Positions 8,226-18,761 of a DNA stretch of 64,000 nt are shown piece by piece (positions within the stretch are counted from its first letter, which is position 1; every line of letters starts with the position of its first letter). This DNA comes from Burkholderiales bacterium (GTDB lineage Bacteria; Pseudomonadota; Gammaproteobacteria; Burkholderiales; SG8-41). The stretch covers positions 1 to 64,000 of the forward strand of contig JAIETP010000023.1 in NCBI GenBank assembly GCA_019744975.1, read 5' to 3'. The notes beneath the pieces are model-generated. The model had not been told where the DNA came from, did no database searches, and was given only the letters and a program-made list of their open reading frames with translations. Made by a program: the position numbers and the translations under genes.

Positions 8226-9185
8226 ATGACCCGATTGCTGATCAGCACTTTTTACGCCGCGTTTTTCACATTCTCGCTGTCCGCGCAGGCCGCCTACCCC
8301 GACAAACCGGTACGCCTGATCGTGCCGCTGTCCGCGGGCGGCGGCATGGATACCGTGACCCGTGCGGTGGCGACGCCGCTCGCGGAAAAATTCGGCCAGA
8401 CCGTGGTCGTCGACAACCGCGCCGGCGGCGGTGGCGCGATCGGCGCCGAACTGACCAGGGAAGCGCCGAAGGATGGCCACACGCTGCTGATGGCCAGCGC
8501 GACCTTTGTGATTCATCCCCTGCTCTACCCGGCGCGTTATGTGCCGACGCGGGATTACGCGACCATCACCCAGGTCACGCGCCAGCCCTATGTGCTGATG
8601 GTCCACCCGGGCATTCCGGCAAAAAACGTCAAGGAACTGGTGGTCTACACCAGGGCCAATCCGAACAAGGTCAATTACGCGTCATCCGGCCAGGGCAGCC
8701 TGATCCACCTGACCACGGAGCTGTTCAAGGTGCGCACCGGCGCCGACATGAACCATATTCCGTACAAAGGCATGGGCGGCGCCTACGTCGACATGCTGGC
8801 CGGTCGTATCCAGGCCGCGTTCCCGAGCATCATTTCGGTGTTGCCGCACCTGAAGACCGGCAAGCTGCGCGCGCTGGCGGTGACCAGCGCGCAGCGCGCG
8901 GCCACGCTGCCCGACATCCCCAGCCTGCAGGAAGCCGGCGTACCCAACATCGATGTTTCAAACTGGTACGGGCTGTTCGCGCCGGCCGGCACGCCGCGCC
9001 AGGTGATCGACCGCGTGCATCGTGAAGTCGTCGAAATCCTCAAAACCGCGGAAATGCAAAAACGCATGGCCGGCGACGGTGCCGAGGGCGTCGGCAGCAC
9101 GCCGGCCGAATTCGCCGCCTATGTCAAAGCCGAATCGGTGCGCTGGGCGGAAGTCATCAAAAAATCCAGCATCAAGGCAGACTAG
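8226..9185 (+). CDS. Bug/TctC-family tripartite tricarboxylate transporter substrate-binding protein
   Basis: ~319 aa from ATG 8226; signal peptide then AYPDKPVRLIVPLSAGGGMDTVTRAVATPLAEKFGQTVVVDNRAGGGGAIGAELTREAPKDGHTLLMAS. Confidence 0.95.
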   Translation: MTRLLISTFYAAFFTFSLSAQAAYPDKPVRLIVPLSAGGGMDTVTRAVATPLAEKFGQTVVVDNRAGGGGAIGAELTREAPKDGHTLLMASATFVIHPLLYPARYVPTRDYATITQVTRQPYVLMVHPGIPAKNVKELVVYTRANPNKVNYASSGQGSLIHLTTELFKVRTGADMNHIPYKGMGGAYVDMLAGRIQAAFPSIISVLPHLKTGKLRALAVTSAQRAATLPDIPSLQEAGVPNIDVSNWYGLFAPAGTPRQVIDRVHREVVEILKTAEMQKRMAGDGAEGVGSTPAEFAAYVKAESVRWAEVIKKSSIKAD

Positions 9186-15320: not shown

Positions 15321-16187
15321 TCAGCCCGGTTTATCCGCGGAGTTGCGGGTTTCCATCCAGCGCTTGATGCGATTGGCATCACCGATGCGGGTTAATTTCC
15401 CCCAGGAATCCAGCAACACGATGATCACCGGTTTGCCGGCGATTTTGGCCTGCATCACCAGGCAACGCCCGGCCTCGGCGATATAACCGGTCTTGGACAG
15501 GCCGATCTGCCACTCATGGCTTTTCACCAGCCGGTTTGAATTGCTGTACTTCATCGGCCGCCCATTGGCCTGTATGGTCAGGCCGCTGTCGGTGGTGAAC
15601 TCGCGGATCAGCGGGTATTGATAGGCCGCGGCGACCATCTTGGTCAGATCCTGCGCGGTGGATACGTTGTCGCTCGACAGTCCGGTGCCGTCAACGAACC
15701 GCGTACGCCACATGCCGAGCTCCACGGCTTTCTGGTTCATCGCCGCGACAAAAGCGCTGGTGCCGCCGGGGAAAACCCGGGTCAGGGCTTCAGCGGCGCG
15801 GTTCTCGGAGGCCATCAGCGCCAGCTGCAGCAATTCCCCGCGGGCCAGCACGGTGCCGATACGCAGCCGTGAACGCGTGCCCTTGATCAGATCCCTGTCG
15901 TCGTTGCTGATGGCGATTTTCTCGGTCAGCGGCAGCCCGGCGTCGATTACCACCATGGCCGTCATCAGCTTGGTGATGGAGGCAATCGGCACGACCTGGT
16001 CGACGTTTTTGGCAAACAGGGTGCGCCCGGACTGGTCGACAACCAGCGCCGCGGAGGACTTCAGTTCCGGGAAGCCGGCGCGCCCGGCGACGGCGGATTT
16101 AACCTTGCGGGCGGTCCGTTCCTGCGACTCGGCGAGTGCGGGGGACGCCGCCAGAATGGCGATCAGGATCACGATCAACCGGCGCAT
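15321..16187 (-). CDS. pbpG: D-alanyl-D-alanine endopeptidase (PBP7/8-like)
   Basis: 288 aa; signal peptide, SITKLMTAMVVIDAG (SxxK), SNN-like SSDNVSTAQD, KTGYIAEAGRCLV (KTG). Confidence 0.92.
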   Translation of the reverse strand: MRRLIVILIAILAASPALAESQERTARKVKSAVAGRAGFPELKSSAALVVDQSGRTLFAKNVDQVVPIASITKLMTAMVVIDAGLPLTEKIAISNDDRDLIKGTRSRLRIGTVLARGELLQLALMASENRAAEALTRVFPGGTSAFVAAMNQKAVELGMWRTRFVDGTGLSSDNVSTAQDLTKMVAAAYQYPLIREFTTDSGLTIQANGRPMKYSNSNRLVKSHEWQIGLSKTGYIAEAGRCLVMQAKIAGKPVIIVLLDSWGKLTRIGDANRIKRWMETRNSADKPG

Positions 16188-16325
16188 CAGTTTGATTTCC
16201 TTCTGAAAATTTCCTGAATTCCCTTGTAAAATACAGCCTTAGCGCGTTTATTTCAACAAGTTTGATTGCTGCGTGCAGCGCCCGGAATCCAGCGGAACAG
16301 CAGGCAAGAATCAGCTCTCGGAGGC

Positions 16326-16363
16326 AAAAAAAACTCCGCTCTGGACAATGTGTCTAGGCGGAG
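16326..16363 (-). terminator. Intrinsic terminator on the minus strand
   Basis: CTCCGC (16334-16339) / GCGGAG (16358-16363) stem with an inner GACA/TGTC stem, followed on the minus strand by eight T (16333-16326). Confidence 0.8.
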
Positions 16364-16439
16364 CTTAAAGAGGCCCTACAGATCACCCGCTCAGCACAGG
16401 TCACTGCAATAGCCAGGCCTCCGAGGAGGAAAAACCAGA

Positions 16440-16507
16440 GTTACCAATCAGCGTTACCAGGGACCAAAGTACCAAGTACCAAGTAACCAACCACAGGATC
16501 CGTAACC
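16440..16507. repeat. Imperfect short tandem repeats GT(A/T)ACCAA
   Basis: gttacca, gttacca, ggaccaaa, gtaccaa, gtaccaa, gtaaccaa, gtaacc. Confidence 0.75.
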
Positions 16508-16686
16508 TGGGGCAGCGGCCGCGATCAGGCACCTACAGCGCCCTGCACCACCCTGCCCCGACGAATTCATGATAGACATACAGGCTTACGCCAAACTTAC
16601 TAACCCGAAGCTTCTGTGACATTACGCATGGCCCAGTATGATTAATCCCCGACAATCCCCACTCCCGACCCGGCTACAACCCCGCC

Positions 16687-17361
16687 ATGCGCCTGCTGAT
16701 CGTTGAAGACCATCCCATACTGGCCGACGGACTGATCATTGCGCTGAAAAGCGCCGATTACGCCGTTGACCATGCCACCACCGGTGAACAGGCCGACCAC
16801 ATGCTGGCCACGCAGCATTACGACGCGGTGATCCTCGACATCGGCCTGCCCAAACTGGACGGTTACGAAGTGCTGCGACGGATGCGGCGCAAAGGCTCGA
16901 AAACACCGGTGCTGATGCTCACTGCGCGCGATGCGCTGGAGGACCGGGTCAAGGGACTCGACCTCGGTGCCGACGATTACCTGACCAAACCCTACGACCT
17001 GCCGGAACTGGAAGCACGGGTGCGGTCGCTGATCCGCCGCGGCCAGTCCGGCGGCGGCGCCAACCTGGTCCACGGTGACTTGACGCTGGACACCGCGGGA
17101 CGGCGCGCCACCATCAAGGGCGCGGCGCTGGACCTGTCGGCGCGCGAACTGGGCGTGCTGGAAGTGCTGATGCTGCGCTCGGGACGGGTGGTCAGCAAGG
17201 AACAACTCGCCGAACAGCTCTACGGCTGGGGTGAGGAAGTCGGTGCCAACGCCATCGAAGTTTATGTGCACCGGTTGCGCAAAAAACTCGAGACGGCGGG
17301 CGTCAATGTGCGCACCATCCGCGGACTCGGCTACATGCTGGAAAAAGCGGCGCATGAGTAA
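16687..17361 (+). CDS. OmpR/PhoB-family response regulator (TctD/QseB-like)
   Basis: 224 aa; MRLLIVEDHPILADGLIIALKSADYAVD...DAVILDIGLPKLDGYEVLRRMRRKG...RLRKKLETAGVNVRTIRGLGYML. Confidence 0.95.
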   Translation: MRLLIVEDHPILADGLIIALKSADYAVDHATTGEQADHMLATQHYDAVILDIGLPKLDGYEVLRRMRRKGSKTPVLMLTARDALEDRVKGLDLGADDYLTKPYDLPELEARVRSLIRRGQSGGGANLVHGDLTLDTAGRRATIKGAALDLSARELGVLEVLMLRSGRVVSKEQLAEQLYGWGEEVGANAIEVYVHRLRKKLETAGVNVRTIRGLGYMLEKAAHE

Positions 17362-17375
17362 GGGCGTCTGACGGA

Positions 17376-18761
17376 ATGAGCAAAGCGCGCACCCTGCGCA
17401 CCCGACTGCTGTTATGGATCAGCGGTCCGCTGCTCGCCTTGTGGGTGATCAGCACACTGGTCGACCACGATGTTGCCAGGGGTTTCGTCAACCTCAATTA
17501 CGACCGCGCGCTGCTCGATACCGCAATGGATCTGGGGCGCAATGTGCGCGAGTCAAACAACCAGCTCTATCTTGATCTGCCGCAGCCGGTGATCGAAATG
17601 CTGATTTCCGGTGAACAAGGCCGTTTTTATTACCGTGCCAACGGCCCCGGCGGCGAATACATCACCGGTGACCCGGATCTCCCCGATCCGCCACCCGAGG
17701 CGGCGGAAGACCGCGTCACCTATTACAACGCCCTTTTCCGCAAAGAACCGATCCGTGCCGTCGCGCTGCGAGTGCCGGTGCGGCCGGGCTCCGGCAAAGG
17801 CGCGATCCTGATCCAGGTCGCGGAACGCTCTGCGCTGCGTGATGATTTTGCCCGCCAGATCATGCTGCGCATGATGATGCCGCAGGGCATCCTGGTGCTG
17901 CTGTCGACGCTGACGATCTGGTTCGGCCTCGGTCTCGGCCTGCGCGCGCTGACTTCCATGCGCCGGGAAATCGAAAGCCGCTCGCACATTGATCTCAGTC
18001 CGATCGACGAAGCCGGGGCGCCGGCCGAAGTGCAGCCCCTGGTGCGCGCAATGAACGACCTGCTGTCACGCCTGAGCGCCGCGCTCGCAGCCCAGCAACG
18101 CTTCATCGCCGATGCCGCGCACCAGCTGCGTACACCGGTGGCCGCGCTGAAGATGCAGGCTGAACTCGCCACGCGGCAGGTGCGCGACGGTGAAGCCGCC
18201 GTCACCCTGCAGCAGCTGCAGACGGCCGCGGATCACGCAGCGCGTCTGGTCGGCCAGTTGCTTACCCTGGCGCGCGCGGAACCCGGCTCGCACCGCAGCG
18301 TGATGCGCCAGCCGGTCGCGCTGATGTCGCTGGCGCGCGACGTCAGCGTGGAATGGGTGCCGCGGGCGCTGGCCCGCCAGATCGATCTGGGTTTCGACGA
18401 CGCTTCCGCGCCCGCGGAAATCAGCGCCGATCCATTCCTGATCCATGAAATGCTCAACAACCTGATCGACAACGCCATTCAGTACACCCCCGCGGGCGGG
18501 CGCGTCACCGTGCGCGTCCGGCTGCAGGAGGATCAGGCCATGCTGGAAGTGGAAGACGACGGCCCTGGCATCCCGGTTGAAGAGCGGGAAAAAATATTCG
18601 AGCGTTTTTACCGCATGCCCGGCGGCGCGCCGGGGGGGTGTGGCCTGGGGCTGGCCATCGTCCGGGAAATCGCGCAGGGCCACCAGGCGACAGTAGCCGT
18701 GCAGGCCGGTGCAGGCGGTCGCGGCACCTGCGTCACCATCACCTTTCCGGCGCCGCAATGA
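17376..18761 (+). CDS. Sensor histidine kinase (TctE/QseC-like)
   Basis: 461 aa; N-terminal 2CSK-type sensor region, RFIADAAHQLRTPVAALKMQAELA H-box, DDGPGIPVEEREKIFERFYR. Confidence 0.95.
   Translation: MSKARTLRTRLLLWISGPLLALWVISTLVDHDVARGFVNLNYDRALLDTAMDLGRNVRESNNQLYLDLPQPVIEMLISGEQGRFYYRANGPGGEYITGDPDLPDPPPEAAEDRVTYYNALFRKEPIRAVALRVPVRPGSGKGAILIQVAERSALRDDFARQIMLRMMMPQGILVLLSTLTIWFGLGLGLRALTSMRREIESRSHIDLSPIDEAGAPAEVQPLVRAMNDLLSRLSAALAAQQRFIADAAHQLRTPVAALKMQAELATRQVRDGEAAVTLQQLQTAADHAARLVGQLLTLARAEPGSHRSVMRQPVALMSLARDVSVEWVPRALARQIDLGFDDASAPAEISADPFLIHEMLNNLIDNAIQYTPAGGRVTVRVRLQEDQAMLEVEDDGPGIPVEEREKIFERFYRMPGGAPGGCGLGLAIVREIAQGHQATVAVQAGAGGRGTCVTITFPAPQ

Follow-up and report, generated by a model that had tools for sequence, protein, structure and literature searches.

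A conserved small RNA gene beside tctD in a family of Burkholderiales, and its probable descent from the 5′ end of czcC

The window analysed here, a 64,000-nt stretch of a Burkholderiales contig, carries between a pbpG-like gene and a tctD-like regulator gene what is almost certainly a real small RNA (sRNA) gene. A preliminary description of the same DNA had proposed a stand-alone sRNA outside Rfam at this place, and this proposal is supported by the conservation of the element, by compensatory base pairs, by promoter elements and a terminator of its own and by the lack of a conserved open reading frame (ORF); the parts that had been named as the working ones did not stand up to the comparison with relatives. 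Our account as a whole, which we put forward with reasonable confidence, is that a TctD-activated, base-pairing sRNA with an anti-Shine–Dalgarno (anti-SD) sequence arose from the 5′ end of czcC.

The sRNA gene lies on the minus strand. Downstream of it, and outside it, is the gene for a pbpG-like D-alanyl-D-alanine endopeptidase (15321–16187, minus strand). On its other side stands the gene for an OmpR-family response regulator (16687–17361, plus strand; nearest models PmrA and TctD), the presumed activator of the sRNA, followed by the gene for the cognate histidine kinase (17376–18761, plus strand), a TctE/QseC/PmrB-like protein with a 2CSK_N sensor domain. The order pbpG, element, tctD was kept in 30 loci, and the kinase gene was kept too where the locus extended far enough. 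The gap between pbpG and tctD had been described as free of any convincing ORF, and a reading of its ORFs bore this out. We also considered an ORF hidden in the stand-alone RNA and rejected it: an in-frame ATG was present in only 4 of 45 loci, with frames that ended at different places. A minus-strand terminator with no minus-strand gene upstream of it had been left as a puzzle; the transcript that ends there is the sRNA itself.

Read from its 5′ side, the gene opens with a putative response-regulator box, GTAAGTTTGGCGTAAG (16585–16600), a direct repeat with an 11-bp period located 10 nt upstream of a −10-like TATCAT (16569–16574). This hexamer had been recognised before; its TA is conserved in the alignment, and the GTAAG-N6-GTAAG half-sites of the box are invariant in 30 relatives. 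Transcription would start at about 16562. The 5′ leader that follows (16436–16562, with a 5′ hairpin and TTGGTAC units) varied between species in both length and sequence in an alignment of 30 loci. It is succeeded by a conserved core of 110 nt (16326–16435, a covariance-model match of 111 bits) that contains, in this order, UUUUCCUCCUCGGAGGCC, a hairpin with GUGCUGAGC, GGCCUCUUUAA, CUCCGC...GCGGAG and U8. The strongest conserved element is UUUUCCUCCUCGGAGGCC (16434–16416), with a closing stem to GGCCUC, whose arms in the consensus structure are GGAGGCCU (16415–16422) and GGGCCUCU (16369–16376). At 16423–16432 lies UUUCCUCCUC, a single-stranded anti-SD stretch and the proposed seed, which from UUCCUCCUC onward showed no variation among the 30 loci and was unpaired both in the fold and in the consensus. 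The inner hairpin (16378–16407) has compensatory changes in its stem, and its GUGCUGAGC loop (16397–16389) was invariant in the first 30 loci. The predicted single-stranded elements that are conserved are the anti-SD stretch and this loop. An intrinsic terminator hairpin with a U8 tail, preceded by UCUUUAA, ends the gene (16326–16365); the sequence CTCCGC...GCGGAG followed by T8 (16326–16333) had been pointed out earlier, and hairpin and U-run were kept in 30/30 aligned relatives. With a predicted promoter of its own, an intrinsic terminator and a conserved single-stranded candidate seed, the gene has these features of the trans-acting base-pairing sRNA class.

The other parts to which attention had been drawn fared less well in the alignment. 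The GGGGCAG/CTGCCCC stem is in the sequence but has counterparts in the nearest relatives only and is not meaningful. The TTGGTAC/TTGGTTAC units and the 9-bp CTCGGAGGC/GCCTCCGAG pairing are likewise in the sequence but specific to this genome, and not even the closest relatives have the UUGGUAC repeats, which had been offered as binding sites. Conversely, UUUUCCUCCUCGGAGGCC with its closing stem, the response-regulator box and a separate pbpG promoter had been missed. In an alignment of the whole gap, the box with the −10, the core and this pbpG promoter stood out as conserved islands amid unalignable sequence.

The pbpG promoter, TTGAAA-17-TATTTT (16228–16256, minus strand), is invariant and lies downstream of the sRNA terminator. 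It bears on a different reading of the locus, in which the structure would be a cis-acting leader or attenuator of pbpG, a far promoter reading into pbpG and the terminator controlling read-through. Although the element and pbpG share a strand and are syntenic in the first 30 loci examined, pbpG has its own predicted promoter below the terminator, so the core is probably unneeded for pbpG transcription. Moreover, the sequence from the terminator to the pbpG promoter is unconserved, no anti-terminator pairing is conserved (the 9-bp pairing being confined to this genome), and in G035, a genome of genus g2, czcCBA separates the structure from pbpG. We therefore regard a pbpG leader as very unlikely and treat the element as an independent sRNA gene.

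In a DNA search, 33 of 61 relatives carried the element at this locus, and every one of the 33 belongs to the same family. With a covariance model built from 30 stand-alone copies, the 3′ domain (16435–16326) was detected in 66 of 74 family genomes and in 9/9 genera; the remaining eight had no model match, and three among them (G017, G021 and G403) keep tctD beside pbpG. Outside the family, a survey of 398 genomes of the order gave no convincing match. The sole other match, L042 (27.6 bits, the best outside the family), was without the hairpin and without synteny and was dismissed as chance. An exact-pattern search of GTDB genomes returned 50 records, 48 of which were confirmed by the covariance model; all 48 are uncultured and nearly all are titled Betaproteobacteria or Burkholderiales, ‘Betaproteobacteria bacterium SG8_41’ included. 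The other two, L055 (Bryobacterales) and L058 (Phycisphaeraceae), failed the covariance model and were likewise attributed to chance. Some records that carry the RNA of the SG8_41-type family are titled Bordetella parapertussis (L061, L064, L069, L085, L090, L091 and L094); judging from the family membership of these MAGs, the titles are probably wrong. Two weak matches (25–31 bits), L236 (G432:C611:6521-6621) and L237 (G449:C247:1629-1729), both have TTCCTCCTCGGAG and a different hairpin, and the one in G449 is preceded by a response-regulator box and followed by a pbpG-like gene. They are possibly a diverged paralogue of the sRNA.

The search of Rfam (release 15) that the preliminary description had suggested gave zero matches at the gathering cut-off in the whole window, and at relaxed thresholds the locus gave chance-level matches only (best E about 1). 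No description of this RNA was found in the openly accessible literature. The 237-nt RNA folds better than 200/200 shuffled sequences (z −3.3). RNAalifold on a structure-blind MAFFT alignment predicted 31 pairs, 9 with compensatory changes. When 59 distinct sequences were aligned by fitting them to the model, 19 of the 31 pairs had compensatory changes compared to a shuffled mean of 11.0, and double changes occurred in 124 cells compared to 35.9 after shuffling; a control with slid partners gave 4–8 pairs. Compensatory changes, which had been named beforehand as a check to be made in relatives, are thus present in the stems.

As to the source of the gene, we consider it very likely that the 5′ end of czcC gave rise to the sRNA once the operon had been lost. 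In genus g2 the model of the stand-alone copies matches inside an ORF (39–71 bits), at codons ~11–50 of czcC, which encodes the outer membrane efflux protein of a CzcCBA-type metal efflux system and is divergent from the same regulator gene. In G035 czcC is followed by the genes for CzcB and CzcA (two ORFs) and then by pbpG; the two ORFs of this czcA (L167 5379-8476) overlap, which reflects a frameshift or an assembly error. In g2 the anti-SD stretch corresponds to the signal-peptide residues FLLGG and the terminator to the residues LSSDL...QAEIFFA, and pairing in the terminator stem is kept via double changes at two positions. The sRNA and the coding gene czcC have the predicted promoter and the 5′ sequence in common, as in the class of sRNAs derived from mRNA 5′ ends. 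In families f24, f30, f31 and f50, too, the tctD orthologue and czcC are divergently transcribed and the same box is present, so the coding sequence appears to be older and the RNA structure to have arisen in it; CzcC of these families can be aligned with its g2 counterpart through the codons of the terminator, and the terminator itself is absent there.

The reverse order, in which an older sRNA was joined in g2 by a czcC that took over sRNA sequence as signal-peptide codons, would agree with the stand-alone form in most of the family, and the tree of the regulator (TctD), in which g2 is one clade, is compatible with both an early and a later branching of g2. We nevertheless find a late arrival of czcC unlikely, given the divergent tctD and czcC with the same box in other families, the outgroup CzcC that aligns across the terminator codons, and the position of czcCBA between the sRNA and pbpG in the single g2 genome whose sequence was followed as far as pbpG. 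Descent from czcC is also the reading that the remnants suggest. G024 (genus g5; L227, G024:C80:4665-4981) has two tandem sRNA copies about 200 nt apart, the first with a frameshifted czcC remnant alongside; the copies would be at different stages of decay from czcC. G433 (g2), with a frameshifted czcC at a contig end, is possibly a decay intermediate as well. Separately, two czcC 5′ ends with the sRNA structure were seen on one 6.9-kb contig (G436:C120, L225/L228).

Homology to czcC and intermediates of decay would also be expected of a non-functional relic of the deleted operon, that is, of a leftover promoter and first codons with an accidental terminator. However, UUCCUCCUC and the GUGCUGAGC loop are invariant in 30 loci from several genera, although the sequences flanking them cannot be aligned. 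The stems covary as well, and almost every genome of the family has retained the element; a relic therefore seems to us extremely improbable. We instead propose that the ancestor was the czcC promoter together with the opening codons of this gene, which headed a CzcCBA operon once located between tctD and pbpG; that the terminator and the anti-SD stretch would have arisen inside czcC codons; and that most of the family would have lost the operon and kept its 5′ end as an sRNA. Whether the g2 stretch has a dual role, serving both as the coding sequence of the signal peptide and N-terminus of CzcC and as an anti-SD sRNA with a terminator within the coding sequence, the sister genera having kept the RNA role only, we judge to be an even question. 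Conservation at four-fold sites in the g2 terminator codons was 0.76 versus 0.43–0.67 per window elsewhere in czcC, a synonymous constraint that is only suggestive of RNA function, other czcC windows being as constrained.

The regulator next to the gene is the candidate for its control. The box with TA ten bases on was present in three copies in the own genome (G000) and in 1–3 copies per genus member, and the reversed pattern was almost missing from the genus members. The other two boxes of G000 lie upstream of tctB, of a tripartite tricarboxylate transporter (L043, G000:C6:152177-152204), and upstream of the gene for an HTH (DNA-binding) protein that begins MGRGRIKAEP... (L044, G000:C16:30663-30690). 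Both recur across the genus, and both have the same orientation and spacing to a downstream −10 as the box at the sRNA; these two genes probably complete a very small regulon. A box fixed in orientation and spacing relative to the −10 fits an activator that overlaps the −35 region. From the position of the box and its co-conservation we infer that it is bound by TctD, and activation of the sRNA by TctD appears likely. The TctD-like regulator would bind GTAAG-N6-GTAAG over the −35 region and thereby turn on minus-strand transcription, giving an RNA of about 235 nt that stops at its own terminator.

The ~110-nt 3′ domain of this transcript would expose UUUCCUCCUC, which could pair with purine-rich ribosome-binding sites and block translation; we lean towards such repression by anti-SD pairing as the mode of action. 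Alternatively, the RNA might mainly bind an RNA-binding protein (e.g. as its titrator) by means of the GUGCUGAGC hairpin, the CCUCC stretch then being of secondary importance. That the loop varies no more than the anti-SD stretch and sits on a covarying stem speaks for protein binding. However, CsrA/RsmA sponges carry repeated GGA loops, whereas the motif here is single-copy and without them. Base-pairing sRNAs that use Hfq have a U-rich stretch next to a long-U terminator, and this layout seems to be the better fit for an RNA with an invariant anti-SD stretch and a U-rich stretch by its long-U terminator. A mainly protein-binding role thus receives only a small share of our confidence, and base pairing remains the mode that we prefer.

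For a base-pairing sRNA of this kind, the best candidate targets would be the TctC/Bug solute-binding proteins of tripartite tricarboxylate transporters. Sites of the form GAGGAGGAA-N2-8-ATG start TctC/Bug genes in 4 of 9 cases in the own genome and in 16 of 28 cases in a sample of the genus, and a complement to the sRNA of at least 9 nt was found at 5 of 44 Bug versus 0 of 159 other gene starts (p = 4e-4). Bug genes also have a stronger SD overall (16S pairing energy, p = 2e-9), and other anti-SD seeds were enriched too; the evidence for Bug targets is confounded because their SDs are strong in general. A target search by SD complement only was abandoned as unspecific, since it enriches for strong SDs. 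G017, the sole genus member without the sRNA, has no GAGGAGGAA-N2-8-ATG site, which may be a matter of composition. That Bug mRNAs are the main targets is, in our estimate, a tentative and rather doubtful proposal. The 3.7-Mb genome G000 has at least 150 TctC/Bug genes, a very large expansion, and their SD sequences are unusually strong; one Bug gene lies in the window (8355–9167).

To our knowledge, the origin of new bacterial sRNA genes is mostly obscure, because traceable sRNA ancestors are rare. Here living genomes would show, at one syntenic locus, the czcC ancestor, the dual state of g2, stages of decay (in G024 and possibly G433) and the completed sRNA gene, which would make the locus a rare traceable case of the origin of an sRNA gene. 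If the dual-role reading is true, the locus holds a stepwise record of an sRNA gene emerging from the start of a protein gene, and a metal-efflux regulator has been re-wired to the post-transcriptional control of tricarboxylate transport. The two-component system would gain a small predicted regulon, consisting of the sRNA, the HTH protein and tctB, and with it a connection, open to experiment, to the TctC/Bug proteins of the genome, which number at least 150.

Finally, we compared the locus with known systems. In Pseudomonas, TctD has a small regulon and controls the tct operon and its own gene (PMC4513871). The regulon predicted here is likewise that of a TctD regulator, small and with a tct gene in it; in the Pseudomonas study no sRNA was described, whereas here the box precedes an sRNA and, in other families, czcC. 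Regulatory RNAs from mRNA 5′ ends are exemplified by the sRNA derived from the rhlI 5′ UTR (PMC6786874) and by RZ from the metZ riboswitch (PMC9373788), in which transcription from an mRNA promoter ends early and the 5′ region becomes a regulatory RNA, as the g2 layout implies. Unlike in these two, the structure and terminator considered here are embedded in coding sequence, and most relatives lack the remainder of the operon and are left with an independent sRNA gene.

The Bordetella sRNA S17 combines a long, variable 5′ part with a conserved 3′ part, and mRNAs of transporter solute-binding proteins are among those that it represses (PMC11722255). S17 and the family RF02278 (‘Betaproteobacteria toxic sRNA’) are likewise betaproteobacterial and possess C/U-rich anti-SD sites as well as an intrinsic terminator, but they have another sequence and fold, with TCCTCCA...CCTCCTCCTTTGGTGGA and then the terminator. 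On sequence comparison, our sRNA does not have these two anti-SD sites before its terminator, and the RF02278 covariance model had no match at the locus up to E=5. RF02278-like RNAs do occur at other loci in most genus members, and in G000 one is found at C2:101773-101835 (L161; 32 bits, below the family cut-off); RNAs of the L161 type are probably an unlisted divergent branch of RF02278. Since the locus itself has no match and the RF02278-like RNAs lie elsewhere, the sRNA is not a member of that family. Nor is S17 described as derived from an efflux gene, the origin that we propose for the present sRNA. In Neisseria, the NmsR sibling sRNAs repress central-metabolism mRNAs with single-stranded anti-SD sequences (PMC5362039). 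They are like our sRNA in the single-stranded anti-SD, which here is a predicted feature, and they differ in being a sibling pair tied to the stringent response. By its layout, then, the sRNA would resemble the anti-SD sRNAs S17 and NmsR in function, an exposed CCUCC pairing with ribosome-binding sites.
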